Shown here: piece by piece, positions 277 to 21,092 of the stretch | Layout: the number at the start of each line of letters is the position of its first letter | How positions within the stretch are numbered: position 1 is the first letter of the stretch | DNA from: Gallionellaceae bacterium | GTDB taxonomy: Bacteria; Pseudomonadota; Gammaproteobacteria; Burkholderiales; Gallionellaceae | NCBI GenBank assembly: GCA_030834965.1 | Contig: JAUQWW010000036.1 | Location: forward strand, 1 to 64,000 | DNA length: 64,000 nucleotides | Direction: 5' to 3' | Notes under the pieces: generated by a model | What the model saw: the letters and a program-made list of their open reading frames with translations, nothing else | The model's database searches: none | What the model was told of the DNA's origin: nothing | Translations under genes and position numbers: made by a program

Positions 277-2289
277 ATGACTGAAGCCTTTTCCTACCAT
301 CAAGCCTTCTCACGCAACGTCGGCTGGGTCACTCCCCAAGAGCAGGAAATTCTGCGCAACAAGCGGGTTGCCATTGCAGGCATGGGCGGTGTGGGCGGCG
401 TCCACCTGCTGACACTCGCGCGATTAGGAATCGGTGCCTTTCACATCGCCGACTTCGACGTCTTCGATATAGTCAACTTCAACCGCCAAATCGGCGCTAC
501 CGTATCCACCCTCGGCCAGCCAAAGGCGGATGTTTTGGCAAGTATGGCCAAAGATATTAATCCCGAGCTGGATATCCGAATTTTCCCAGACGGGGTGAAC
601 CAGAATAATTTGTCGGATTTCTTTACAAACATAGATCTATATGTAGACGGCCTTGATTTTTTTGCATTTTCTGCCAGGCAGGCGACATTCGCCGCCTGTG
701 CTAGACTGGGCATTCCTGCGATCACAGCTGCCCCTCTAGGGATGGGAACCGCGTTACTAAATTTCCTGCCGGGAGGGATGACCTTTGAACAGTATTTCCA
801 GTGGGGCGATCTGCCCGAAGAGGAAAAAGCACTTCGCTTCCTCCTCGGCTTGGCCCCTGCTGGACTGCACGCATCCTACCTCGTCGACCCGTCCGCTATC
901 AACCTGAAGGAACGCCGTGGACCGTCCACCATCATGGGATGCCAATTGTGTGCCGGCGCAGCCGCGACAGAGGCGCTGAAGATATTACTTAGCCGGGGCA
1001 GAGTACTTGCTGCACCGCACGGCATTCATTTCGACGCCTATCGCAACAAACTCGTCCATACGTGGCGTCCCGGCGGAAACGGCAACCCAATTCAGCGGCT
1101 GGGACTTTCCATTGCGAGAAAGCGACTTAACAGCGGAACCGGCTCGGCAGCCGCCCAAATCGCACCCACTGTGTCCCGCGATACGACTCCCCACTCCACA
1201 CCCATAGCCGCAGAGAAAGCGCATCCCCCATCTACCATTGAACAAATTCTCGACCTTGCGCGTTGGGCGCCCAGTGGAGACAACACGCAGCCCTGGCGTT
1301 TTGAGATTATTGACGACCATCATGTGGTAGTGCACGGATTTGATACCCGCGACCACTGCGTCTATGATCTGGATGGCCATCCAAGCCAGATTGCATTAGG
1401 CACGTTGCTCGAGACAATTTCCATCGCAGCAACAGCGCACGGCTTACTTGCAAGAATCTCTCGCCGTATGGAAATGCCCGAAACCGAGCCTACCTTTGAT
1501 GTGCATTTCGTGCCAGACAAGAGCCTTAAGCCTGACCTCCTCATCCCCTATATTCCTTCCCGCAGTGTGCAACGCCGGGCCATGCGAACCCGCCCCCTAA
1601 GTCGAGCAGAAAAAAGCGCATTAGAGGCTGCGGCAGGCGAGAGGTACACCATCCTGTGGCTTGAAGGGGCAGCCAAGCGGGCGGCAGCCGCCCGACTGAT
1701 GTTCAACAATTCCAAGCTACGCTTAACCATGCCCGAAGCGTACCAAGTGCATCGTGACATCATTCAGTGGAATGCTCGGTACAGCGCGGACAAGGTGCCC
1801 GACCAGGCACTCGGGCTTGACTCCCTTACACTGAAAATTATGCGTTGGGTAATGGGAAGCTGGGGACGTGTCGACTTTTTTAACACCTTCCTCGGTGGTA
1901 CTCTGGCACCTCGCATTCAGATGGACTTGGTCCCCGGACTTGCTTGCGCTGCCCATTTCGTGATTCAGGCTAATGAAACCCCGCGGACTATTGACGACTA
2001 TGTCAATGCTGGCAGAGCCGTCCAGCGGTTCTGGCTAACCCTGACGCAACTGGGGCTCTTCATGCAACCAGAAATGACGCCTCTTATTTTTTCGCGTTAC
2101 GTGGAAAACGGGATACAGTTCTCAAGAGGTAGGGGCATGCAGGAACGCGCGCATCAGCTTTCCCGCCAACTCAGTCAGCTGATCGGAGAAGGAACAACCT
2201 CCCGCTCCGTTTTTATGGGAAGAATCGGTGCGGCGCCCCCCCCCTCGGCTCGTTCCTTGCGAAAGCCTCTTTCAACTCTAAAGCTGTAG
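277..2289 (+). CDS. ThiF-family adenylyltransferase fused to a nitroreductase-like domain
   Basis: The 670-residue protein has two domains. Residues about 10-265 are a ThiF/MoeB/E1-like Rossmann domain with the nucleotide-binding motif GMGGVGG at 35-41, the acidic strand end ADFD at 58-61, NFNRQ at 67-71 and a single CxxC (GCQLC, 221-225). E1-like enzymes adenylate a carboxylate, usually the C terminus of a ubiquitin-like or sulfur-carrier protein. After a Ser/Pro/Thr-rich linker (about 282-318), residues 320-640 resemble the FMN nitroreductase fold (ARWAPSGDNTQPW at 328-340). No sulfur-carrier gene is seen nearby, so the substrate is unknown. ThiF-nitroreductase fusions also exist in actinobacteria (Rv1355c type). 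No clear ribosome binding site precedes the ATG; the start rests on domain completeness. A hairpin terminator follows. Confidence 0.85.
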   Translation: MTEAFSYHQAFSRNVGWVTPQEQEILRNKRVAIAGMGGVGGVHLLTLARLGIGAFHIADFDVFDIVNFNRQIGATVSTLGQPKADVLASMAKDINPELDIRIFPDGVNQNNLSDFFTNIDLYVDGLDFFAFSARQATFAACARLGIPAITAAPLGMGTALLNFLPGGMTFEQYFQWGDLPEEEKALRFLLGLAPAGLHASYLVDPSAINLKERRGPSTIMGCQLCAGAAATEALKILLSRGRVLAAPHGIHFDAYRNKLVHTWRPGGNGNPIQRLGLSIARKRLNSGTGSAAAQIAPTVSRDTTPHSTPIAAEKAHPPSTIEQILDLARWAPSGDNTQPWRFEIIDDHHVVVHGFDTRDHCVYDLDGHPSQIALGTLLETISIAATAHGLLARISRRMEMPETEPTFDVHFVPDKSLKPDLLIPYIPSRSVQRRAMRTRPLSRAEKSALEAAAGERYTILWLEGAAKRAAAARLMFNNSKLRLTMPEAYQVHRDIIQWNARYSADKVPDQALGLDSLTLKIMRWVMGSWGRVDFFNTFLGGTLAPRIQMDLVPGLACAAHFVIQANETPRTIDDYVNAGRAVQRFWLTLTQLGLFMQPEMTPLIFSRYVENGIQFSRGRGMQERAHQLSRQLSQLIGEGTTSRSVFMGRIGAAPPPSARSLRKPLSTLKL

Positions 2290-2370
2290 GTATTATCAAG
2301 TCATCGTATACACATGGCTCAACTCGTGATCGCTAGTATACTTTACGCAGTGATATGAGAGCGCCAAATA

Positions 2371-2398
2371 CAAAACCCCGCATTGCGGGGTTTTGTTT
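2371..2398. terminator. Intrinsic terminator, possibly bidirectional
   Basis: A perfect inverted repeat (CAAAACCCCGC / GCGGGGTTTTG, 3-nt loop) is followed by TTTTGTTT on the plus strand and preceded by an A-rich stretch, so it can work in both directions. It lies between the ThiF fusion gene and the convergent PEP-CTERM gene. Confidence 0.85.
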
Positions 2399-2416
2399 GG
2401 TCAAGATTTCCTTAAT

Positions 2417-3274
2417 TTAGAACTTCATCGAACGACGACGGCTGAAACCCACCAAGGCCAACAGTCCAGCTCCAATCAGCGCAACGCTGCCAGGCTCAGG
2501 AACTGTCAGGTTCAAGCTACCATCGCTGTTGACAACCAGATCACAGTCGATGATCTGTCCTGCAACAACATTACAGGCGGCCGCCTGACCCAATGTGTTT
2601 TGGGTGTGAATTGCTGCAAACAAGGTTCCCAGCGGCAGTGCGTTAACAAAAGGATCATACGAAGCACCGGTAGAATCACGGAACAGATTACTGGTGTAAC
2701 CCGCCGAGTTAACTCGAGTGAGCATGTCGGTTGTTCCATTTGGGAGAAGCCCGCCCAAGAAGGCGCCCAATGAACCACCTGACGGGTTAACGGGGGTAAG
2801 ATCGGTCAAGGTGGTGTAAGTGACTCCGCCATCAGTGGTCCCCTGAATGGCGATATTACCCACTCCTGAAGTGAACGCATAGGTTACCGCTCCTGATGGG
2901 GCAACCGACGTCAGAACTCCAGCAAGACCAGTATATACTAATTGCAGGCCATTTAACGGAGAGGCGAAGCCAGCGGGGAAACCAGCGTCACACGCCCCAA
3001 CACAGCTTTCGTTTGTAACACTAATTGAGAAAATTGACCCAAACTCAGTAAATGGATCACCCGGGTCCAGTACGCCATTGCCACCAAAGTTCTGGTTAAC
3101 GTAACCGACACCACCACTTAAGTTGAGATGACCAATGTTTGTCGTTACCGAAGCAATCCCGGCAGCCGTTGTATCTAGCCGCCACGCATCCTGAATACCC
3201 ACTGTTACTGCGCTAGCTGCCGAGCTAGCTATGGCGAATAAACCCGTTAACACGAGTTTTGGAATTGTTTTCAT
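2417..3274 (-). CDS. PEP-CTERM sorting domain-containing secreted protein
   Basis: The 285-residue exported protein starts with a Sec signal peptide (hydrophobic LVLTGLFAIASSAASA, cut near residue 22). It ends with a classic PEP-CTERM tripartite signal: VPEPGSVAL, a hydrophobic helix (LIGAGLLALVGF) and a basic tail (SRRRSMKF). By the Haft model, exosortase cleaves or transfers proteins at the Pro-Glu-Pro motif; the exosortase A gene is in this window (19521-21092). The mature part is rich in Gly, Ser, Thr and Val, with two close Cys (CVGAC) and two more near the C terminus (AACNVVAGQIIDC). That is typical of low-complexity extracellular matrix proteins, and its specific function is unknown. 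GGGAG stands 8 nt before the ATG. A sigma-54 promoter lies about 65-80 bp upstream. Confidence 0.92.
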   Translation of the reverse strand: MKTIPKLVLTGLFAIASSAASAVTVGIQDAWRLDTTAAGIASVTTNIGHLNLSGGVGYVNQNFGGNGVLDPGDPFTEFGSIFSISVTNESCVGACDAGFPAGFASPLNGLQLVYTGLAGVLTSVAPSGAVTYAFTSGVGNIAIQGTTDGGVTYTTLTDLTPVNPSGGSLGAFLGGLLPNGTTDMLTRVNSAGYTSNLFRDSTGASYDPFVNALPLGTLFAAIHTQNTLGQAAACNVVAGQIIDCDLVVNSDGSLNLTVPEPGSVALIGAGLLALVGFSRRRSMKF

Positions 3275-3338
3275 GTTCGCTGCTCCCCTATCGTAAAGTA
3301 TTTAGCATCTAGAAAATTCTACTGCTCGTCAGTAGACT

Positions 3339-3354
3339 AGCAACGACCATGCCA
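3339..3354 (-). promoter_or_regulatory. Sigma-54 (-24/-12) promoter of the PEP-CTERM gene
   Basis: Read on the minus strand the site is TGGCATGGTCGTTGCT. It matches the consensus TGGCACG-N4-TTGCW at all but one position, with the invariant GG and GC 10 nt apart. Predicted transcription starts about 11-12 nt downstream, giving a leader of roughly 55 nt before the ATG at 3274. RpoN together with the PrsK/PrsR two-component system is the established regulator of PEP-CTERM genes in some Betaproteobacteria; PrsR itself is not encoded in this window. Confidence 0.8.
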
Positions 3355-3484
3355 ACATAATTAAACACCTACAATACATATAGTTAAAAACTATCTTGAT
3401 TACCTTCCAAGTAAATTTTAGAAATTTTGTAAAAAAACCCGACAAGCCTAATTTGGCCTACTGCCAGATATTTACAGATTAGTA

Positions 3485-4468
3485 CTATTTCGCATCGCCA
3501 ACTGGTGTGACTATTGCCGAAGCTGATTCCACTACGTTGCGCTGGTAAGGATGTTCTGTTTTCCTATAGAGCCTGGCAATTTTTCGCACATAATCCTGCG
3601 TCTCAGGATAGGGCGGAATTCCACGGTATTTTTCAACTGCCTTCTCTCCCGCGTTATAGGCTGCAGCCACCAACGGTACGCTGCCCTTGAAAACCGCCAG
3701 CAGCCATTGCAGATAGGCCAGACCACCCTTGATATTTTCCTTCGCATCAAAAGCATCTTTGACGCGGAAGCGTTGAGCAGTTTCGGGAATGAGCTGCATC
3801 AGACCTTGTGCATTTTTCGGGGATTGTGCGCGGACATTGAATCCGGATTCGACTGAAATGACCGCCATCGCCAGCTTGGGGTCCACCTCGTAGCGTGGCG
3901 CCAGTTGGTGCACCAGCTTGAAGATAGGACCATTCAGGTAAACGGGCTCATCCGTTTTCGATCCTTCATCTGCATTCTCAGCCACTTTTTCAGCCTCCGC
4001 CTTCTCTTCAGCTTCGGCTTGCTTTACAGGCTCAGCTTCTGGCTCGGGCAACAGGCAGGAAGGAAGCGGGTTTGACGTGGATGACTGTGTGTAGCCTGTC
4101 ATTTTCCGCGCATGGTCATGCCCCTGTTCGGCTGCCAGCGCGAATAGCTGTGCGGCCACACCATCATCCTTGGGAATGCCGCGCCCGTTGGCATACATCC
4201 ATCCGAGAGCGTATTGTGCATCCGCGTAGCCCAACCTTGCTGCGCGGCAATACAGCGCAATGGCCATGGCGTAATCGCGCGGCACACCTTCGGCATGTTC
4301 GTATTTGACCGCCAGTTCCAACAGCGACTTGGGGTTATCTGGATTTTCAGATTCCCCTTGCTTGTGTAAACCCTGCAAGGCTACAGCCAGATTGTCGGCA
4401 GCTGCTTCATTGCCAACGGACAATGCCAGCACAACCAGCGCCATAAATGAATTTAAGTGAAAAGACAT
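3485..4468 (-). CDS. Sel1-repeat lytic transglycosylase (SLT family)
   Basis: Start chosen at ATG 4468 (327 aa), not an upstream in-frame ATG, because AAGGTGG sits 8 nt before it and the signal peptide (hydrophobic MALVVLALSV) then begins properly. Residues about 45-122 carry two Sel1-like TPR repeats (YADAQYALGWMYANGRG type). A charged Ala/Glu-rich linker (about 135-175) leads to a C-terminal goose-type lysozyme/SLT domain with the catalytic Glu in SVESGF (E207), GLMQL (222-226) and AYNAGE (270-275). The family cleaves the MurNAc-GlcNAc bond of peptidoglycan in the periplasm with anhydro-MurNAc formation. It probably opens the wall locally for assembly of envelope machinery. A 39-bp element shared with the region before the eps operon lies just upstream (4544-4582). 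Confidence 0.88.
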   Translation of the reverse strand: MSFHLNSFMALVVLALSVGNEAAADNLAVALQGLHKQGESENPDNPKSLLELAVKYEHAEGVPRDYAMAIALYCRAARLGYADAQYALGWMYANGRGIPKDDGVAAQLFALAAEQGHDHARKMTGYTQSSTSNPLPSCLLPEPEAEPVKQAEAEEKAEAEKVAENADEGSKTDEPVYLNGPIFKLVHQLAPRYEVDPKLAMAVISVESGFNVRAQSPKNAQGLMQLIPETAQRFRVKDAFDAKENIKGGLAYLQWLLAVFKGSVPLVAAAYNAGEKAVEKYRGIPPYPETQDYVRKIARLYRKTEHPYQRNVVESASAIVTPVGDAK

Positions 4469-4543
4469 TACGATTACCACCTTGCTTGTGATTACCCTCA
4501 TAAGCGTAAATTCGCAAACCAAATCAGAGGGTGCGTTGCATCA

Positions 4544-4582
4544 TATCGGCTACGGCAACAAGAACAATTGGACTTTGGTACA
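4544..4582. repeat. 39-bp conserved element, copy A
   Basis: Starts TATCGGCT and ends TTGGACTTTGGTACA. It is identical at 33 of 39 positions, without gaps, to 8743-8781. Here it lies 76 bp upstream of the minus-strand lytic transglycosylase start, in a spacer of only about 125 bp. Conservation outside any recognisable ORF suggests a regulator-binding site or promoter element. Confidence 0.6.
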
Positions 4583-4594
4583 GGCGGCAGGCCC

Positions 4595-5404
4595 CTAGTG
4601 TTTTTCCATGGGAGAGGCTCTTTGCGAAGTAGGCGCTTTGTCCGCGTGCTCAGCACTTTCTCGCACCATCCGCTTGCTGTGCCGCTGCAAGTTGCTGCTC
4701 AACTGGTGAATGATTTCCGAGGCGGCATTGACGATCTGTTTTGATCCGAGGCCAGCCCGGGTCATTTCCCTGAAGAAAGATTTTGCCAGAATTTTGGCCA
4801 CTTGGTCAGGATTCTGAAAGGCAATCCCCAAGGAGCCCTCCATATCTTTATTTGCTTCCTGCACCATTGCCAACTGGGCGAAGCGGGAATTCAGGATGCT
4901 CTGAAGCTGAAACACCTGGATTGATTTGCCGATAAACAGGGCAACTACATCAAGCAAATTCAGATCTGTCAGATTGAAAGCGTTTCCATGCGCATGGCCG
5001 CTCACGTTGACCACTCCAACAATCCGCCCACTGATGGTAATAGGTGAGGACAGCAGACTCTTGCGTGGGTCATGGGCACGCCGGGCCCACTTGGCAAAAC
5101 CGGATTGATCAATATCTTCGATCAATAAGGATCGGCCGGTTGCAATCACATGCCCGGCAATGCCATCGCCCTGCCCGATCGACTCCTTGTAAGCCGCAGC
5201 TGGCAACGGACCGTAGCAAGCGTAAACACTCATGCGCATATTTTCTGATTCGCCATCATTCAGCAGCATGATGGAACAATTTTCTGCGCCGAGGATTTTT
5301 GCCGTCACTGCCGCAAGTTGCTGGAGATTGTCGTCAAGGCTGCCTTTCTCCAGGAGCCTGGATAGATCCTGAAGCTTGATCAGAGGATTTTCCATTTCAC
5401 CCAT
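4595..5404 (-). CDS. GAF-domain sensory protein
   Basis: The 269-residue cytoplasmic protein has no signal peptide. Residues about 20-165 form a GAF domain (ENCSIMLLND, GDGIAGHVIATG, SSPITISGRIVGVVNV), followed by a helical region likely to be coiled coil (about 165-250). No kinase, GGDEF or HTH output domain is attached, so it must act through a partner. AAGGAG lies 7 nt before the ATG at 5404. It is on the same strand as the transglycosylase, but the 126-bp gap holding element copy A suggests separate transcription. The ligand is unknown; GAF domains bind cyclic nucleotides, haem or other small molecules. Confidence 0.8.
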   Translation of the reverse strand: MGEMENPLIKLQDLSRLLEKGSLDDNLQQLAAVTAKILGAENCSIMLLNDGESENMRMSVYACYGPLPAAAYKESIGQGDGIAGHVIATGRSLLIEDIDQSGFAKWARRAHDPRKSLLSSPITISGRIVGVVNVSGHAHGNAFNLTDLNLLDVVALFIGKSIQVFQLQSILNSRFAQLAMVQEANKDMEGSLGIAFQNPDQVAKILAKSFFREMTRAGLGSKQIVNAASEIIHQLSSNLQRHSKRMVRESAEHADKAPTSQRASPMEKH

Positions 5405-5467
5405 GACATTGCTCCTTCATTGGTCAGTCGATTGTTGTTGCAGTATAGCTGTTTGACTGGGCCATCA

Positions 5468-6544
5468 TCATTTGTGCTTGGGTGAAATGAAGGCTTTGTG
5501 AAGCAGATGGCGCGCAAGCAATAAGGGGGGCATGCGGAGCCAGTTTGCGCGGATATAAAGCATCCACCGCGCGGTACCCGTCAGCCAGTCGGAACAGCTT
5601 GGGTGATCCGGCATGAGCGCGCGTGAGAATAGTGCATCCATGAGAGCCAGGGTTAGCCGGCCCGGGCGGCCGATCCGGGCGGCTTCCATTGCCTCTGAGG
5701 GGATAGGCGTGTGCAGGATCTGGGCTGTATAGCGCAACGCGTAATAAAGCGAACGCGTCAACTCAAGCTCCTTTGCGCGCTCGACCAGTCTTGGCCAGAA
5801 TGATGGGAGAGTGCTAAAGTGGCGCAGCAAGCTGTCAATATCAACCAGGTCCCGGAGCCCATTATGCAGTTCACCCTCATGGAATAGATGGACAGCACTG
5901 TGCAGAACCATATCAGCTGGGGCGAAAACCTTCAGGCCGCTATATCCATCCAAAGTATGCGCCGCTGCACGAAGCTTTTCCGGGTCGGGGTGAACGCAAG
6001 CCGTTTCCGGCAAGATCGCATGATGCACATCAATCACAGTCAATCGTTTGATGTGTTGCATGGGAGGCAACTCATGCATCCAGGTACGATAATAGCGCTG
6101 GTCATAGGCATCGATACCCGTTGTGGCCCAGCCATGAAGCATCAAGGCAGCCTCCACCGCATTGATGTTGGTCTTGGGCACCATGATATCGATATCGGAA
6201 AAAAGACGCCCCTGCGCAAAAGGCAGCTTTGCCATGACATAGGCAGCCCCCTTGAGAAGGATGATCGGCACTCCCTCCTTCTCCAATGCCTTCCTGATCA
6301 GGACTATTTCCCGATGAACGGCTTGTGCATGTCGTTCAGACAGGACGCGCGACCATTCAAGGTGTTCACGGGGTTGAGGCGGCACCTGATCAATCAGGCC
6401 GCGCTCATCCAGCAATGCGCGAATGCTTGACAGCAGGTTGGAGTGCCGTGCCTGACGCAAGAGCATGTCCCAGTCCGCAAGGCTCAGGGAAGCCAGCGCA
6501 TCGGGCTGACGAAACGCTTGTAATATCACTGGACTTGGGATCAC
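5468..6544 (-). CDS. NTP_transf_5 nucleotidyltransferase of the HPr-rel-A module
   Basis: The 358-residue protein belongs to the uncharacterised nucleotidyltransferase family 5. The polymerase-beta-like signature is visible: LLKGAA (96-101) and, about 16 residues later, LFSDIDIMV (114-122) with the two metal-binding Asp at 117 and 119. A third acidic patch (IDVHH) follows near residue 170. It starts with GTG one base after the TGA of the upstream kinase gene, so translation is probably coupled. As last gene of the Tat protein-PqqD-kinase-nucleotidyltransferase operon it may transfer a nucleotide to a peptide, sugar or small molecule; the substrate is unknown. Confidence 0.85.
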   Translation of the reverse strand: MIPSPVILQAFRQPDALASLSLADWDMLLRQARHSNLLSSIRALLDERGLIDQVPPQPREHLEWSRVLSERHAQAVHREIVLIRKALEKEGVPIILLKGAAYVMAKLPFAQGRLFSDIDIMVPKTNINAVEAALMLHGWATTGIDAYDQRYYRTWMHELPPMQHIKRLTVIDVHHAILPETACVHPDPEKLRAAAHTLDGYSGLKVFAPADMVLHSAVHLFHEGELHNGLRDLVDIDSLLRHFSTLPSFWPRLVERAKELELTRSLYYALRYTAQILHTPIPSEAMEAARIGRPGRLTLALMDALFSRALMPDHPSCSDWLTGTARWMLYIRANWLRMPPLLLARHLLHKAFISPKHK

Positions 6545-6545
6545 A

Positions 6546-7460
6546 TCAAGGGGTAGGCGGTTTTAATGCGGCAAATGTTTCAATGGCTTCATCCAGCTTG
6601 CTATAGGTGAAATCATAGCACAGCGACACATCAATCAGACCCGCCAAGGCCTCAAAGCCCTTGACTCCGAGAAGACTGTAATTAAACGCGTTCTCTGCAA
6701 CCCGCATGAAAGCGCGCGATTGAGGCAGTGCTTCCAAACATGCAGCAGCATTCGCCTTGTATTTCGGGAAAATCACCCAGGCCGCCCGCACAGCTTCCGA
6801 AGCGCGTGCGACACTGTTAGCGGGCGCTTTCATATGAGCGACGGTACCCTTCATTGTATCGGCCACCATGCGGCCCAAAACCGCACTAGGTTCGTAGTTC
6901 CGGATGATATCGATGGATGCATTTTTCAGGCTGACAGGCCGGGGGATTGGAACAAGTTTCCCGTCGCTGATGCGTATCAATGCGAGTTCATCGGAAAGAA
7001 GACGCCAGCCGCGATTCACCAGGGCAGCACACAGTGTGCTTTTCCCCGAGCCGGGAGGGGCGGGCAAAATGGCGGCATAGCCACCCTTTTCAACCACTGC
7101 CGCATGGATAATCAGATAACGGTTCGCATGGTTCGATACGCACCAGTTGAGCCCCCACTCGAACATGGGGAACGCCTGATCGAGTGGCAAGGGCTTGAAT
7201 GGAGAGTAGCCATCAAACCGAAATTGAACCTGCGGCCTGAACCATCTCCTCAGGTCACGCGGAGGGGCGAGGCTGACATGGAAATCTGCGAAACCGTCCT
7301 GTTCCGCCAAAGGGTAATCGGCGTATAGCAATCCAATACCCTCAGCCACGCTGGAAATCGAAGTTTGCAGGTGGGTAATGAAGGAGCCCGTCCTGAGCCG
7401 TATCCCGGACTTATTTAGACGATGCCGAAGCTCTGAGGACGTTAACGCGGAAACATTCAA
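6546..7460 (-). CDS. HprK-related kinase A
   Basis: The 304-residue protein resembles the C-terminal catalytic domain of HPr kinase/phosphorylase. It has a P-loop APPGSGKS (134-141), a preceding IIHAAVVEKGG segment and LLSDELALI (154-162) as the acidic Walker-B-like motif. It matches the HprK_rel_A family of exosortase-bearing Betaproteobacteria, where it co-occurs with a PqqD-like protein and an NTP_transf_5 protein. True HprK phosphorylates Ser46 of HPr, but no HPr or PTS gene is present here, so a different substrate is likely. The gene overlaps the PqqD-like gene by 4 bp (ATGA) and is followed immediately by the nucleotidyltransferase. Confidence 0.88.
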   Translation of the reverse strand: MNVSALTSSELRHRLNKSGIRLRTGSFITHLQTSISSVAEGIGLLYADYPLAEQDGFADFHVSLAPPRDLRRWFRPQVQFRFDGYSPFKPLPLDQAFPMFEWGLNWCVSNHANRYLIIHAAVVEKGGYAAILPAPPGSGKSTLCAALVNRGWRLLSDELALIRISDGKLVPIPRPVSLKNASIDIIRNYEPSAVLGRMVADTMKGTVAHMKAPANSVARASEAVRAAWVIFPKYKANAAACLEALPQSRAFMRVAENAFNYSLLGVKGFEALAGLIDVSLCYDFTYSKLDEAIETFAALKPPTP

Positions 7461-7753
7461 AATCTGGTCTGTTCTATCAGCGCAAGCGCATTGAGATCAG
7501 CGAGAAGGTTTTCAATTTGAGGTGCGAGGGATTCATCCATCATTTCAACTCGCAACAAGGATGCGAGAGATTCAGCCAACGTGATTGCATCTGATGGCGC
7601 CTGCTGTAGTTTTAGCAAGACCTGGGCGGCGGCAGAACCCAGCAGATGAGTGTCCCCTGAAAGATTGTTATAGACAACGAACTCGTCGTCCCAGGAACGA
7701 AGCCGAAGAGCTTGATCTGACATCAATCTCCACTTCATGTTTGAGTCCATCAT
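7457..7753 (-). CDS. PqqD-like peptide chaperone of the HPr-rel-A module
   Basis: The 98-residue protein has the PqqD fold pattern: W-R near the N terminus, DEFVVYNNLSGDTHLLG (beta strands with a conserved G-D-T), a helical middle (AAQVLLKLQQ) and a C-terminal helix (LLADLNALALIEQ). PqqD-type proteins are RiPP recognition elements that bind a leader peptide and present it to a modifying enzyme. Its presence beside a kinase and a nucleotidyltransferase suggests that the operon modifies a peptide or protein. The start at 7753 is uncertain because no strong ribosome binding site is seen. It overlaps the kinase gene by 4 bp. Confidence 0.82.
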   Translation of the reverse strand: MMDSNMKWRLMSDQALRLRSWDDEFVVYNNLSGDTHLLGSAAAQVLLKLQQAPSDAITLAESLASLLRVEMMDESLAPQIENLLADLNALALIEQTRF

Positions 7754-7798
7754 GACATTACGGCGAGAATTAAATTATTGAGTGCACGCAAACAACTG

Positions 7799-8431
7799 CT
7801 ACAACGTCATCGTAGTTTTCAAGTAGTTGACAATATCTGCCTCGTACCACTTGACACCCGCAGTAGGTTCAAAATAACTATTCAGATCCCATTCGTTGAA
7901 TATATTTATGACCTGCGCTTCGGTTAACACTGGAGTCAATGCCTTTCTGGCATTAACTATTGCAGCGACGATGTAAGCGCCTAACTGGGTGTGGTCGAGG
8001 AAAATCACCTGCATCATGCTGTAATTCTTGTATTTCGCTCCATAACCGTTGCAGCTAACCACCTTGTCAAATGTGGTTCCCTGAATCCAATCATCTACCT
8101 GTGTGCATGACGTGTTGTTCTTGCATTTGCCAGGCGAGTATGGAGGATCCGGCCATGCCTCCGGATGGTCTCGATAATAGAGCGGGTTCTGGCCACTGCA
8201 CACTGGAGGCGTACCATGGGAACTGACATTGCCCGAAACAAAACCAGACGGTGTGTGGCACGCCCAGTCGCCGAGTACGGGCCGACTGGCAAGAGTAAGC
8301 AATACACCAGACGCGACCAAGCCTGACTTGGTGAAGCTTCTGCGCGACTTATCAACCAATTTCGTTGGTCCGGCAATTTCTTGAAATGCCTGTTGCTTTT
8401 CTTCGCCGTTCTGGTGTTCCTGGACAGCCAT
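7799..8431 (-). CDS. Tat-exported cysteine-containing protein heading the HPr-rel-A operon
   Basis: The 210-residue protein has a long charged N-region, then a twin-arginine motif SRRSFTK (29-35) and a hydrophobic stretch (about 36-48), so it probably leaves the cytoplasm folded through Tat. The mature part has five Cys (in DWAC, PVCSG, GKC, TSC and SCNG), many Pro/Gly/Asn in its first half and a helical C-terminal half. I do not recognise the family. AAGGAG lies 5 nt before the ATG. It is the first gene of an operon with PqqD-like, HprK-like and nucleotidyltransferase proteins, so it is a natural candidate for their substrate or product carrier; this is inference from position only. Confidence 0.75.
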   Translation of the reverse strand: MAVQEHQNGEEKQQAFQEIAGPTKLVDKSRRSFTKSGLVASGVLLTLASRPVLGDWACHTPSGFVSGNVSSHGTPPVCSGQNPLYYRDHPEAWPDPPYSPGKCKNNTSCTQVDDWIQGTTFDKVVSCNGYGAKYKNYSMMQVIFLDHTQLGAYIVAAIVNARKALTPVLTEAQVINIFNEWDLNSYFEPTAGVKWYEADIVNYLKTTMTL

Positions 8432-8534
8432 ATAAACTCCTTAAATGCTGCTTCTGTATTTCATGCGACTCTTCGAATACATTATCAATTGTTGTAGTTA
8501 TAGCATTAAGTGACGAGAGATTGACTATCAAGCA

Positions 8535-8550
8535 TGCAAAATTCATTCCA
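8535..8550 (-). promoter_or_regulatory. Probable sigma-54 promoter of the HPr-rel-A operon
   Basis: On the minus strand the sequence is TGGAATGAATTTTGCA. GG and GC are 10 nt apart and the -12 element TTGCA is perfect; the -24 element TGGAATG differs from TGGCACG at two positions. Predicted start near 8524 gives a leader of about 90 nt to the ATG at 8431. Confidence 0.65.
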
Positions 8551-8604
8551 CCCAATTAATGCCGCGTAATTATATGATATTAATTGGGCCGTTACATAAT
8601 TGGG
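8551..8604. promoter_or_regulatory. Inverted/direct repeats, possible enhancer-binding site
   Basis: CCCAATTAAT (8551-8560) and ATTAATTGGG (8579-8588) form a perfect inverted repeat with an 18-nt spacer. A third half-site TAATTGGG follows at 8597-8604. They lie directly upstream of the sigma-54 promoter, where a bacterial enhancer-binding protein could act. TAATTTGGCC at 3449-3458, about 95 bp upstream of the PEP-CTERM promoter, resembles the half-site TAATTGGGCC (8581-8590). Confidence 0.45.
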
Positions 8605-8742
8605 CGTTGAGAATTTTTTGCGTCACCGGACTGTTTTGTGCCAAGCGTAAAAAATCCCGACATTCGACCGCGACTAGTTGCGACCTCCGTACCTCGAGGC
8701 AAGTTCAGAAATTGCTCGTATTTCCATTTTGCATCCAAATCT

Positions 8743-8781
8743 TATCGGCTTCGGAAATAAAAACAACTGGACTTTAGTACA
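8743..8781. repeat. 39-bp conserved element, copy B
   Basis: Matches copy A (4544-4582) at 33 of 39 positions in the same orientation, starting TATCGGCTTCGG and ending TGGACTTTAGTACA. It lies about 285 bp before the eps export gene and about 310 bp before the divergent Tat-protein gene. Similarity falls off sharply on both sides. Confidence 0.6.
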
Positions 8782-9066
8782 CTAAACCTGCCCAAGGATT
8801 TCAAGTATCCTTCTTATAATTCAGGAAAGCAACCCCTTGAGATAAGAAGATTTCTTATTTTATTACAATTAGATGGCGAACTCATGGTTAAATGTATATT
8901 ATATAAAAAATATTGGTGTTCCGTTTGGGCGCCAACACAACAATACTGATCTTGAACCATCTCCTAGACCCTTTCCGCCTCATTAAATTTGAGCCTATTT
9001 ATCGAGTTCCTAGCGTACCGCACCGTTACTTCAATTTTCATAAATTCGTTTAAAGAGGAAATCCAA

Positions 9067-9705
9067 GTGAACACTCTCCATATAAATACCCCAAGAAAAC
9101 TGGTCTATTTTTTTGCTATGGCACTTTTAGTTTTTACCGTGGGCGAGAGTAGTGGCAATCCCCTTCCGCCTCCTGCAGCCGAAGAAGCGCAACCCACAAT
9201 GCATAACTACCTGATTGGTCCGGGTGACAGCGTAAACATCATTGTGTGGCGCAATCCGGAAGTCTCAATGTCAGTCCCGGTTCGGCCAGATGGCAAAATT
9301 ACCACTCCGTTGGTGGACGATCTTCCCGCTAGCGGGAAGACGTCATCACAATTGGCCCGCGACATCGAAAAAGCTTTGGCCAAATATATTCAGGATCCGG
9401 TCGTAACAGTTATTGTGACTGGATTTGTTGGACCCTATAGCGAGCAGATCCGTGTCATTGGCCAGGCCGCAAAACCTCAGGCCCTCCCATACCGTGAGGG
9501 CATGTCGCTAATGGATGTGTTGATTGCGGTCGGCGGCATCACAGAATTTGCTTCGGGAAACAAGGCCAGCATTATTCGTGGCGTGGGCGAAAAGCAGCAA
9601 AAGCTTGCGGTCCGACTGGACGACCTGATCAATGAAGGTGACATATCTGCCAACACTCCGATGTATCCAGGAGATATTCTGGTTATACCCGAAAGCTTCT
9701 TTTGA
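9067..9705 (+). CDS. XrtA-system polysaccharide export protein (Wza/OPX family)
   Basis: Start chosen at GTG 9067 (212 aa): AAGAGG lies 8 nt upstream, while the longer frame begins with TTG at 8989 without a ribosome binding site. After a signal peptide (hydrophobic LVYFFAMALLVFTVG), residues about 47-130 form the polysaccharide export (Poly_export) domain (YLIGPGDSVNIIVW, VRPDGKI). Residues about 126-170 are an SLBB-like domain (IRVIGQA, GMSLMDVLIAVGG). OPX proteins form the outer-membrane or periplasmic exit for exopolysaccharide. Most relatives are lipoproteins, but no Cys is present near the signal cleavage site. First gene of the eps operon; a 245-bp gap follows. Confidence 0.9.
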   Translation: MNTLHINTPRKLVYFFAMALLVFTVGESSGNPLPPPAAEEAQPTMHNYLIGPGDSVNIIVWRNPEVSMSVPVRPDGKITTPLVDDLPASGKTSSQLARDIEKALAKYIQDPVVTVIVTGFVGPYSEQIRVIGQAAKPQALPYREGMSLMDVLIAVGGITEFASGNKASIIRGVGEKQQKLAVRLDDLINEGDISANTPMYPGDILVIPESFF

Positions 9706-18265: not shown

Positions 18266-19528
18266 ATGCAAGACATTCTGTACCTCACACACCGCATTCC
18301 CTACCCGCCCAACAAGGGTGACAAGATCCGCTCCTGGCATCTGCTGAAGCACCTGGCGCAGCGTTATCGGGTACATCTGGGCACCTTTGTCGATGACCCG
18401 CATGACTGGCAACACGTGGATAAAGTAAAGGTATTGTGCGGAGAAACCCATTTCGCAGCCTTGCATCCGCGCAGCGCGCGACTGCGCAGCCTGGGTGCAT
18501 TGGCTGGCAAGCGGCCGCTGACGCTGGACTATTATCGCAATGGCGATTTGCAGCAGTGGGTAGGCAAGGTGATGCGGGAACAAGCCATCGAGCGCGTGCT
18601 GGTATTCTCTTCCGCCATGGCCCAATTTGTGATGGAGGCCCGGCAAGCGCGACGCATCATCGACTTCGTCGACATCGATTCTGACAAATGGCGGCAGTAT
18701 GCCGAGAAAAAATCCTGGCCGATGAGCTGGCTCTACCGGCGTGAAAGCCGCACGCTGCTAAGCTATGAGCGGAAGGTCGCGCACGAATTCGACGCATCGC
18801 TGTTCGTGTCGCAAGCCGAGGCCGATCTGTTCAAGCAACTGGCGCCGGAAAGCACGACAAGGATCGGCTTCTTCAACAACGGCGTAGATACGGAATATTT
18901 TTCTCCTGCCCATGAATATCCCAATCCTTACTCCGCAGATGAAGCGGCTATCGTATTCACCGGCGCGATGGACTACTGGCCCAATATCGATGCAGTGCAA
19001 TGGTTTGCGCAAGAAATACTGCCTCGCGTACTGGCAAGGAATCCCGATGCGCGCTTTTATATTGTCGGCTCCCGGCCTACGCCTCAGGTGCAGGCCCTCG
19101 CGTCGCTGGCTGGTGTGCGCGTGACCGGCGCGGTGCCCGACATTCGTCCCTATCTCGCGCATTCAAGGATTGCCGTGGCCCCGTTGCGCATCGCGCGCGG
19201 CATTCAGAACAAGGTGCTGGAGGCGATGGCCATGGCCAAGCCGGTGGTCGCATCCGCCCAGGCGCTGGAAGGCATTGCCGCAAATATCGGAGAAGAAGCG
19301 CTGCTCGCACGGGACAGCAACGAATTTATCACCGCTGTTACTTCCCTACTGCAATATCCCCAGGACAACATTGGCCATGCCGCACGGGCGCGCGTTGTGG
19401 CGGACTACACTTGGGAACACAACCTGGAACGCGTGGACGAGTTACTTGCACCGGAGGTGACATTGCGCAGCACCGCCACCGCATCACCACCCGTTACGCT
19501 TACAACCGCCGGAGCAATGCATGAGTAA
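18266..19528 (+). CDS. XrtA-associated sugar transferase (GT4, TIGR03087 type)
   Basis: The 420-residue GT-B glycosyltransferase starts at ATG 18266, with MQDILYLTHRIPYPPNKGDK as the family's characteristic N terminus; the longer frame begins inside the FemAB gene. The C-terminal donor-binding half shows VFTGAMDYWPN, VTGAVPDIRPYLA and GIQNKVLEAMAMAKPVV. It adds a sugar to the lipid-linked repeat unit on the cytoplasmic side. It overlaps xrtA by 8 bp. Confidence 0.93.
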   Translation: MQDILYLTHRIPYPPNKGDKIRSWHLLKHLAQRYRVHLGTFVDDPHDWQHVDKVKVLCGETHFAALHPRSARLRSLGALAGKRPLTLDYYRNGDLQQWVGKVMREQAIERVLVFSSAMAQFVMEARQARRIIDFVDIDSDKWRQYAEKKSWPMSWLYRRESRTLLSYERKVAHEFDASLFVSQAEADLFKQLAPESTTRIGFFNNGVDTEYFSPAHEYPNPYSADEAAIVFTGAMDYWPNIDAVQWFAQEILPRVLARNPDARFYIVGSRPTPQVQALASLAGVRVTGAVPDIRPYLAHSRIAVAPLRIARGIQNKVLEAMAMAKPVVASAQALEGIAANIGEEALLARDSNEFITAVTSLLQYPQDNIGHAARARVVADYTWEHNLERVDELLAPEVTLRSTATASPPVTLTTAGAMHE

Positions 19529-21092
19529 ACCTGCCATCCATTCTGACAGCACTGTTATTTCGCGCCACGCTCCCAACTGGAGCGCCGCCACGCTGTTCAC
19601 CGTCACTGCGGTGACAACGTTGCTGCTGCTGTTCTATCAGACTTCCTTGTCCACGGTGGCAATCTGGAACCGTTCGGAAACGTTTGCACACGGCTTCCTG
19701 ATTTTCCCCATCTCTGCGTATCTGATCTGGAGCCAGCGCAAGGAAATCGCGTTGCTCACGCCCCAGCCAGACCTGCGTGGCCTTCCCATTCTGCTGCTGT
19801 TCGGATTCGGCTGGCTGCTGGCCTACCTGGCACGGGTACAGGTGGTGCAGCAATACGCGCTTGTGGCGATGATACCGGTGCTGGTGTGGATCATCCTTGG
19901 TCTGCGCGTCACCCGCGCCCTCATGTTCCCGCTGGGGTTTCTGTTTTTTGCGGTACCGGTGGGTGAGTTTCTCATTCCCTACATGATGGAATTCACCGCC
20001 GATTTCACGGTTGCCGCGCTGACACTCACCGGCATCCCGGTCTACCGCGAGGGCCTCTTCTTTACCATTTCCAGCGGGCAATGGTCGGTCGTGGAAGGAT
20101 GCAGCGGCCTGCGCTACCTGATCGCCTCGCTCACCCTGGGCTGTTTGTACGCCTACCTCACATACCGCAGCACGAAGCGGCGCATCATTTTCACGGTCCT
20201 GTCGCTGATCGTCCCGGTCATCGCCAACGGCCTGCGCGCCTACATGATCGTGATGATCGCGCACCTCTCCGACATGAAGCTGGCGCTGGGAGTCGATCAC
20301 TACATCTATGGCTGGGTATTTTTCGGTCTGGTGATGCTGCTGCTGTTCTGGATTGGCTCATTCTGGCGCGAAGACCTGCCGCATGCCGAAGGCGACAAAC
20401 CTGCCGTTGCACCGCCAGTCAACGCGGCACCGATACCGGTTCGCAGCATCGCCTTGGCCACCCTTGCTGCCGTAGGCATAGCCGCCGTGTGGCCGGCGTA
20501 TGCCGCATATCTGAAAAGCCAGGTTCCGCTACCCGCACCGATCAAGCTTGAAGCGCCCGCCTCCATCAATGGCTGGCAGGCAGACCCGGCACAACTGTCT
20601 GACTGGCAGCCCGATTACAAGGGTGGCGACGCCAGCCTGATGCAGACCTATCGCAAAGGCTCCAAAGCAGTCAGCCTCTACCTTGGCTACTACCTCCATC
20701 AGCGCGAGGGTGCCCTACTCGTTACATCGACGAACGTTATCGTGCGCCAGAAACACCCCGTCTGGAACAACGTTGGCGAGTCAAAACGCGCCATCACGGC
20801 GAACAGCGAGCCGCTTCAGATCGTGCAAACCAAGCTGCGCTCCCCTGGCCAGCGGCTGCTGGTGTGGAACTGGAACCGCATCGGCGACACTTATACCGTC
20901 AGTGCGCATTTTGCCAAAGTGCTGGAAGCCAAGGCAAGATTGCTGGGGCAGCGTGACGATGCGGCGGCCATCATCCTGTCTTCACCCTACGATGGAGACC
21001 TGGAATCCTCTGCCACCGTGCTGCAGGAATTCATCGGCGACATGCTGCCGGCCATCGAAACAAGCCTGAAACAGGCTGCAGACAGGTCGTGA
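19521..21092 (+). CDS. xrtA: Exosortase A fused to an EpsI domain
   Basis: The 523-residue protein has an N-terminal exosortase of about eight membrane helices (20-285). Its conserved catalytic triad is visible: Cys194 in VEGCSGLRY, Arg239 in NGLRAY and His260 in DHYIYGW. It is the transpeptidase-like enzyme thought to process PEP-CTERM proteins at the membrane. After a linker and another helix (about 305-325), residues about 340-520 form a periplasmic EpsI-type domain (ASINGWQAD onward). GGAG lies 6 nt before the ATG. The PEP-CTERM protein at 2417-3274 is a clear local substrate candidate. Confidence 0.95.
   Translation: MSKPAIHSDSTVISRHAPNWSAATLFTVTAVTTLLLLFYQTSLSTVAIWNRSETFAHGFLIFPISAYLIWSQRKEIALLTPQPDLRGLPILLLFGFGWLLAYLARVQVVQQYALVAMIPVLVWIILGLRVTRALMFPLGFLFFAVPVGEFLIPYMMEFTADFTVAALTLTGIPVYREGLFFTISSGQWSVVEGCSGLRYLIASLTLGCLYAYLTYRSTKRRIIFTVLSLIVPVIANGLRAYMIVMIAHLSDMKLALGVDHYIYGWVFFGLVMLLLFWIGSFWREDLPHAEGDKPAVAPPVNAAPIPVRSIALATLAAVGIAAVWPAYAAYLKSQVPLPAPIKLEAPASINGWQADPAQLSDWQPDYKGGDASLMQTYRKGSKAVSLYLGYYLHQREGALLVTSTNVIVRQKHPVWNNVGESKRAITANSEPLQIVQTKLRSPGQRLLVWNWNRIGDTYTVSAHFAKVLEAKARLLGQRDDAAAIILSSPYDGDLESSATVLQEFIGDMLPAIETSLKQAADRS

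Follow-up and report, generated by a model that had tools for sequence, protein, structure and literature searches.

The operon described here lies in a 64,000-nucleotide stretch of a Gallionellaceae bacterium contig (JAUQWW010000036.1, positions 1 to 64,000; the window, below) and consists of four open reading frames (ORFs) on the minus strand that span 8431-5468 (Table 1). The first encodes a small protein with a signal peptide of the twin-arginine translocation (Tat) type and is preceded by the Shine-Dalgarno sequence AAGGAG; it is followed by genes for a PqqD-like protein, an HprK-like kinase and a nucleotidyltransferase-fold protein of the NTP_transf_5 family. All four ORFs were present where the original prediction for this DNA had placed them. 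That prediction had described four linked minus-strand genes with 4-bp and 1-bp junctions, headed by a sigma-54 type promoter, and the ORF coordinates (PqqD and HprK genes overlapping by 4 bp, HprK and NTP_transf_5 genes 1 bp apart, and a gap of 45 bp between the Tat and PqqD genes) and the -24/-12 site bear this out. It had also called the P-loop of the kinase and the DxD motif of the nucleotidyltransferase intact, in agreement with our finding that the P-loop lysine K140 and the residues D117 and D119 are invariant among homologues. The window kinase and PqqD protein, with adjacent genes, are both over-cut-off members of the HPr-rel-A system (TIGR04352/TIGR04353), and the Tat protein had no family match in NCBIfam and Pfam.

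Table 1. Features of the operon and its upstream region in the window.
Feature	Position	Strand	Basis or remarks
Tat-signal protein (210 aa), candidate substrate	7799..8431	minus	
Tat-type signal peptide, residues 1-54	8270..8431	minus	acidic N-region, S29-R30-R31-S-F-T-K, hydrophobic stretch, T46-L-A-S49-R-P-V-L-G54
Serine tail C58-H-T-P-S62-G-F-V-S66-G-N-V-S70, proposed modification site	8222..8260	minus	conservation in homologues
Folded mature domain with GYW-type motif (NPLYYRDHPEAWP in the window)	7802..8200	minus	AlphaFold2 model
PqqD_rel_X (HPr-rel-A PqqD family peptide chaperone)	7457..7753	minus	TIGR04353, 64.1 bits, cut-off 35
HprK_rel_A kinase	6546..7460	minus	TIGR04352, 415.7 bits, cut-off 200; TTG start
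NTP_transf_5 nucleotidyltransferase-fold protein	5468..6544	minus	PF14907, 190 bits, cut-off 31; GTG start
Sigma-54 (-24/-12) promoter TGGAATGAATTTTGCA	8535..8550	minus	motif score
PrsR-type enhancer box TGTCGGGATTTTTTACG	8646..8662	minus	10/12 to TGTCGA-N5-TTTACA; window ends TTTACG, one mismatch at end

The Tat gene accompanies the kinase

Among 100 relatives, 17 genomes had HprK_rel_A over its cut-off, and 13 of these, but none of the rest, also had the Tat protein. When the loci of this set of 17 genomes were read directly, a gene with a twin-arginine (RR) signal was present in every one, even where the mature part was unrelated. A scan of named genomes added 80 loci, giving 97 HprK_rel_A loci in total. 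In 91 of the 97, an automatic detector placed a Tat-signal gene immediately before PqqD, and the order Tat-PqqD-HprK-NTP was kept in all 91. Three loci missed by the detector (L104, L118 and L071) carry the Tat gene on inspection by eye, and in L074 and L109 the hydrophobic and mature parts are visible, but the start of their ORF lies too far downstream. PqqD was near the kinase in 96 of the 97 loci and NTP_transf_5 in every one.

These loci are akin to one another, so that p values drawn from them presume more independence than there is, and an even sample of 398 genomes from across the phylum provides the fairer test. The kinase was present in 61 of these genomes, which yielded 54 usable new loci. 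The detector gave 47 hits, 3 of which proved to be other genes; the remaining 44, together with 3 recognized by eye, put the Tat gene in 47 of the 54 loci. The detector background was 4.6% (27 of 586 ORFs outside operons), and we rejected a chance neighbourhood on the basis of 91/97 and 47/54. Thus, the recurrence of a Tat-signal gene beside HprK_rel_A homologues, to which the original prediction had pointed as a check, was indeed found, and the lack of co-occurrence that it had named as a refutation was not seen.

The Tat gene was adjacent even in loci without neighbouring exopolysaccharide (EPS) genes, such as L056 and a Vibrio plasmid (L233) whose partner protein retains RR and C-S-I-T-S-C-M-S-G-N. 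In divergent branches of HprK_rel_A, the Tat partners have an unrelated mature part together with a similar signal and a Ser/Thr-rich start. Because these partners share only the signal type and the Ser/Thr-rich start, the signal-plus-tail region is likely to be the recognized part. Taken together, the recurrence of the pairing in Pseudomonadota suggests that a small protein is chemically tagged in the cytoplasm by the neighbouring enzymes and then exported. Orphan copies of the Tat family were seen away from the kinase operon in kinase-positive genomes (L072, 6327-6977; L354, G395:C20:42444-42578) and are possible substrates in trans.

Conserved parts of the Tat protein

We compared the 91 homologues position by position. 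The best conserved residues were R31, R30, S62, W93, S66, C58 and S49; the two arginines of the pair were kept in 90/91 and 91/91 homologues, S62 in 89/91, S66 in 88/91 and C58 in 87/91. The serine tail and the RR-signal core had mean pairwise identities of 49% and 48%, the surroundings of the GYW/WP motif 36% and the remainder 26%. The signal and the tail thus form a module of the pattern RR...TLASRPVLG...C-x-SPSGxxSGN. Its T-L-x-S motif occurred in 80/91 Tat homologues vs 3/109 background RR signals. The N-region (residues 1-26), which is net negative in 89% of homologues, was the least conserved segment, with a mean pairwise identity of 17% vs 7.5% after shuffling. The original prediction had the PqqD-like protein read this charged N-region, a proposal that gains little from these data; since the signal core and the serine tail are the conserved parts, recognition is more likely to occur there. 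Of the rest of that interpretation, the Tat gene as recurring partner stood, and the three enzymes belong to families that act together on peptides in lasso clusters.

An AlphaFold2 model of residues 57-210 had a mean predicted local distance difference test (pLDDT) score of 90.4, with low confidence confined to the first 20 residues, which hold the serines. In this model, S62 and S66 would lie within a flexible tail right after the signal peptide, the cleavage after G54 being a prediction by eye. The modelled mature domain found no fold match in the PDB. The protein ends in TTMTL and, with 210 aa and a folded domain, is not a short precursor with a C-terminal serine. It had no match to TIGR02595 or PF07589 that would indicate a PEP-CTERM tail. 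In four homologues (L087, L098, L112 and L131) a cysteine directly follows the predicted cleavage site (LLAC, GMAC, VLGC), and therefore some homologues may be Tat lipoproteins.

Next, the two parts of the protein were searched separately as profiles in 321 genomes of the class. The mature-domain profile matched in 29 of the 321 genomes, 24 of which have the kinase over cut-off. Among the kinase-free matches, those in G183 and G198 comprise the GYW-type domain only, within secreted proteins that are large or of Sec type; that in G179 begins at profile position 21 inside a 650-aa frame, and those in G314 and G121 are fragmentary and were left out of the serine-tail comparison. The readable homologues in kinase-free genomes had no serine tail. 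In the window's own genome, a 2194-aa protein likewise carries only the GYW-type domain. The profile of signal plus serine tail gave strong hits (E <= 2e-7) in 23 of the 321 genomes, and all 23 were HprK_rel_A-positive; the next hits (E >= 7e-6) resemble ordinary signals or small peptides. We therefore rejected a reading of the Tat protein as a general family of secreted proteins that has nothing to do with the kinase: the mature domain does occur alone, but its readable copies then lack the serine tail. The GYW-type domain ([ST]PG[YF]W...VAALLNA) was seen in such secreted proteins, large or of Sec type, at L229 (26-6610), L223 (3726-5153) and L224 (1443-2315).

The three enzymes and lasso-peptide tailoring

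The kinase residues H119, K140, D157 and E158 were invariant in 12 kinases, and a model of the kinase (pLDDT 93) places it in the PEPCK/HprK superfamily. The window kinase has the P-loop, the pattern of active-site His and Asp and the fold superfamily in common with HPr kinase/phosphorylase (HprK/P), but it scored only 16.9 bits against TIGR00679 (cut-off 240), differs in its N-terminal half and would act on the Tat protein, not on HPr. In the nucleotidyltransferase, D117, D119 and D172 were invariant in 11 proteins and are kept in a Deinococcus protein that joins PF14907 to a lasso B2-type protease domain.

In lasso-peptide clusters, an HprK-like kinase phosphorylates a serine of the precursor, PsmN adds hexoses to the phosphoserine, and the B1 protein is PqqD-like (PMC9266682, PMC8498205). 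Lasso tailoring, with paeninodin PadeK, ThcoK, and PsmK and PsmN of pseudomycoidin, thus likewise employs an HprK-like kinase, a nucleotidyltransferase-like protein and a PqqD-like B1. The H119-K140-D157-E158 set of window-type kinases matches the His-Lys-Asp-Asp active-site set of lasso kinases (PMC9266682), with Glu in the last place. PsmN is a putative counterpart of NTP_transf_5, and the tie between PF14907 and lasso systems seen here is the Deinococcus fusion. Lasso systems, however, have a B2 protease, a C cyclase and a short precursor, whereas the window operon has a folded Tat-signal protein of about 16 kDa. A search of genes at and near the operon (window 277-9705) matched neither a B2 transglutaminase-like protease nor a C asparagine-synthetase-like cyclase.

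HprK-like kinases far below the TIGR04352 cut-off were found next to very short ORFs, of about 57-100 aa, in which a short tail follows a Tat-type signal (L350-L353 and L365). The signal reads SRRxFxKKAxYxAPAxLTLxAxPxxA, two or three copies of the ORF are present in L352 and L353, and a PqqD-like ORF is near the kinase in L350 and L353. These loci are possibly a sister system with RiPP-like substrates (RiPP, ribosomally synthesized and post-translationally modified peptide). A Tat partner is not the rule for such sub-cut-off relatives; 9 of 10 further loci (L357-L364 and L366) had none.

Upstream sites and the exosortase regulon

A 17-nt box ending in TTTACA and a sigma-54 site precede PEP-CTERM genes and have been tied to PrsR (Haft et al. 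2006, PMC1569441), and PepA of Aquincola requires RpoN (PMC9850573). Both kinds of site were found upstream of the Tat gene. A -24/-12 site scoring at least 11.5/14.5 was present in 92% of comparable loci vs 5% of shuffles and 1% of reverse complements. The enhancer box, which in the window lies just beyond the interval covered by the original prediction (5468-8604), reached at least 10/12 in 88% of 89 loci, compared with 0% of reverse complements and 0.4% of shuffles; the motif TGTCGA-N5-TTTACA was derived from the same loci on which it was scored, and the controls are their own reverse complements and shuffles. An initial guess, TGTAAA-N5-TTTACA, was weaker. The box sits 87 +/- 11 nt upstream of the -24/-12 site across the Tat loci vs 63 +/- 11 in the PEP-CTERM regulon (PMC1569441).

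We used PrsR as the marker of the exosortase regulon across genomes. PrsR was over cut-off in 32 of the 33 kinase genomes vs 55 of the 288 others. The window operon, like many of its relatives, adjoins XrtA/EPS genes, the exosortase A gene of the window being at 19521-21092. The box, the -24/-12 site and the co-occurrence of PrsR are thus features in common with the PEP-CTERM/exosortase regulon (PMC1569441), and they tie the operon to that regulon; the original prediction had taken its place next to the exosortase locus as a hint of an envelope role. The Tat protein itself is unlike PEP-CTERM proteins and, by sequence, is not an exosortase substrate.

A second PrsR-type box was found at 3444 (minus), upstream of a PEP-CTERM gene at 2417-3274 (minus) whose product has weak similarity to floc_PepA (43 bits, cut-off 80). 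Several Massilia-type loci have a pepcterm_export-like ORF about 1 kb upstream.

A possible tagging system and its alternatives

With moderate confidence, we favour the view that the operon is a dedicated tagging system acting on its own first gene product, in which the three enzymes would phosphorylate, and perhaps further decorate, Ser62/Ser66 before Tat export. We infer the following course of events, in which the Tat protein as substrate, the serine used, the kind of mark, the capture by PqqD, the export by Tat and the role in the envelope are all proposals, and the chemistry is drawn from lasso-peptide enzymes. PrsK/PrsR and sigma-54, the drivers of PEP-CTERM genes, would switch the operon on through the upstream sites. 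The Tat protein would then be made with its motif signal peptide (RR...TLASRPVLG), a flexible tail (C-x-SPS62-GxxS66-GN) and a compact domain, as sequence and model indicate. The PqqD-like protein, given the role of PqqD-type domains, may capture and present the signal-plus-tail segment, and the HprK-like kinase would phosphorylate Ser62 and/or Ser66. NTP_transf_5 might add a nucleotidyl or hexosyl group, probably on that phosphate, as is reported for PsmN on pseudomycoidin. The tagged protein would leave through Tat and could act in the envelope or matrix alongside exosortase-sorted proteins. Because Tat carries folded cargo, this route suits an ATP-dependent modification in the cytoplasm.

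More tentatively, and with somewhat less than even confidence, we suggest a general and hitherto undescribed form of this modification before export: a PqqD-type chaperone would read a Tat signal that doubles as a RiPP-like leader, the kinase and NTP_transf_5 would put a phospho-linked (nucleotidyl or sugar) group on a conserved N-terminal serine of a small protein, and elsewhere in Pseudomonadota related kinases would have short peptides and other proteins with a Tat signal as their targets.

Several observations weigh against a dedicated tagging system. A structural role could instead account for the conservation of the serines. In lasso peptides the kinase modifies a C-terminal serine, whereas the candidate serines here are near the mature N-terminus. 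The divergent Tat partners have no SPSGxxSGN motif, only Ser/Thr by the cleavage site, so that a single common site is unproven. About 1 in 8 loci phylum-wide had no Tat gene nearby, and L078 (Nitrosospira SZUA-177), the sole such case among the 97 loci, has HprK_rel_A and NTP_transf_5 with neither a Tat nor a PqqD gene. Finally, neither TIGR01409 nor PF10518 hit the window protein at E <= 0.1, and the label Tat therefore rests on the RR pair, the hydrophobic stretch and the tatC gene present in the genome; some relatives of the protein do give weak hits of the TIGR01409/PF10518 type.

The strongest competitor to a dedicated tagging system, which we regard as unlikely but worth weighing, is that the Tat protein is merely a co-regulated envelope or matrix protein and that the three enzymes work on some other peptide, or on a precursor, sugar or lipid, for the exopolysaccharide made by the XrtA locus. 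The adjoining XrtA/EPS genes would fit this, and a small-molecule substrate is conceivable because HprK and PEPCK share a fold. However, the Tat gene stays adjacent where no EPS genes lie beside it, PqqD-type domains are peptide binders, and the serine tail was found solely where the kinase occurs.

We consider it improbable that the operon serves export proof-reading, in which PqqD would hold the signal peptide in the manner of a Tat chaperone and export would be gated by a reversible phosphorylation that leaves no permanent mark. HPr kinases can act as both kinase and phosphorylase, and the signal core, with its unusual T-L-x-S motif, is among the most conserved regions; yet this explanation accounts neither for NTP_transf_5, present in all 97 kinase loci, nor for the near-invariance of the serines that follow the cleavage site. 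Least probable of all, in our judgement, is a RiPP-like pathway with the signal peptide as leader and a small modified serine-tail peptide later released from its carrier domain, since the short RR-signal ORFs beside sub-cut-off kinases in a few genomes, sometimes in 2-3 copies, would suit it but the window-family mature domain is a confident fold with conserved residues of its own and the operon has no protease gene.

The kinase and PqqD families have already been named, and the tagging system we propose appears akin to known PqqD/HprK/nucleotidyltransferase peptide tailoring, with a real chance that it is something more. Within the HPr-rel-A system, neither the Tat partner nor its serine tail nor the link to the regulon is named in NCBIfam, Pfam or the open-licence papers searched, and these papers give no substrate for the trio. 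With its two specified serines, the Tat protein offers a concrete candidate, so that the substrate question can be tested directly. If the proposal is true, enzymes known for lasso-peptide tailoring would extend to whole secreted proteins. The use of Tat would then follow from the need to modify the cargo while it is still in the cytoplasm, and a new and widespread secreted component would join the exosortase/exopolysaccharide regulon.

Other features of the window

The region 277-2289 on the plus strand encodes a ThiF-type E1-like domain fused to a nitroreductase-like domain (PF00899, PF00881; PRK14851-like). Two 11/12 matches to the PrsR-type box, at 611 and 1869 (plus), lie inside this coding region and are perhaps due to chance.

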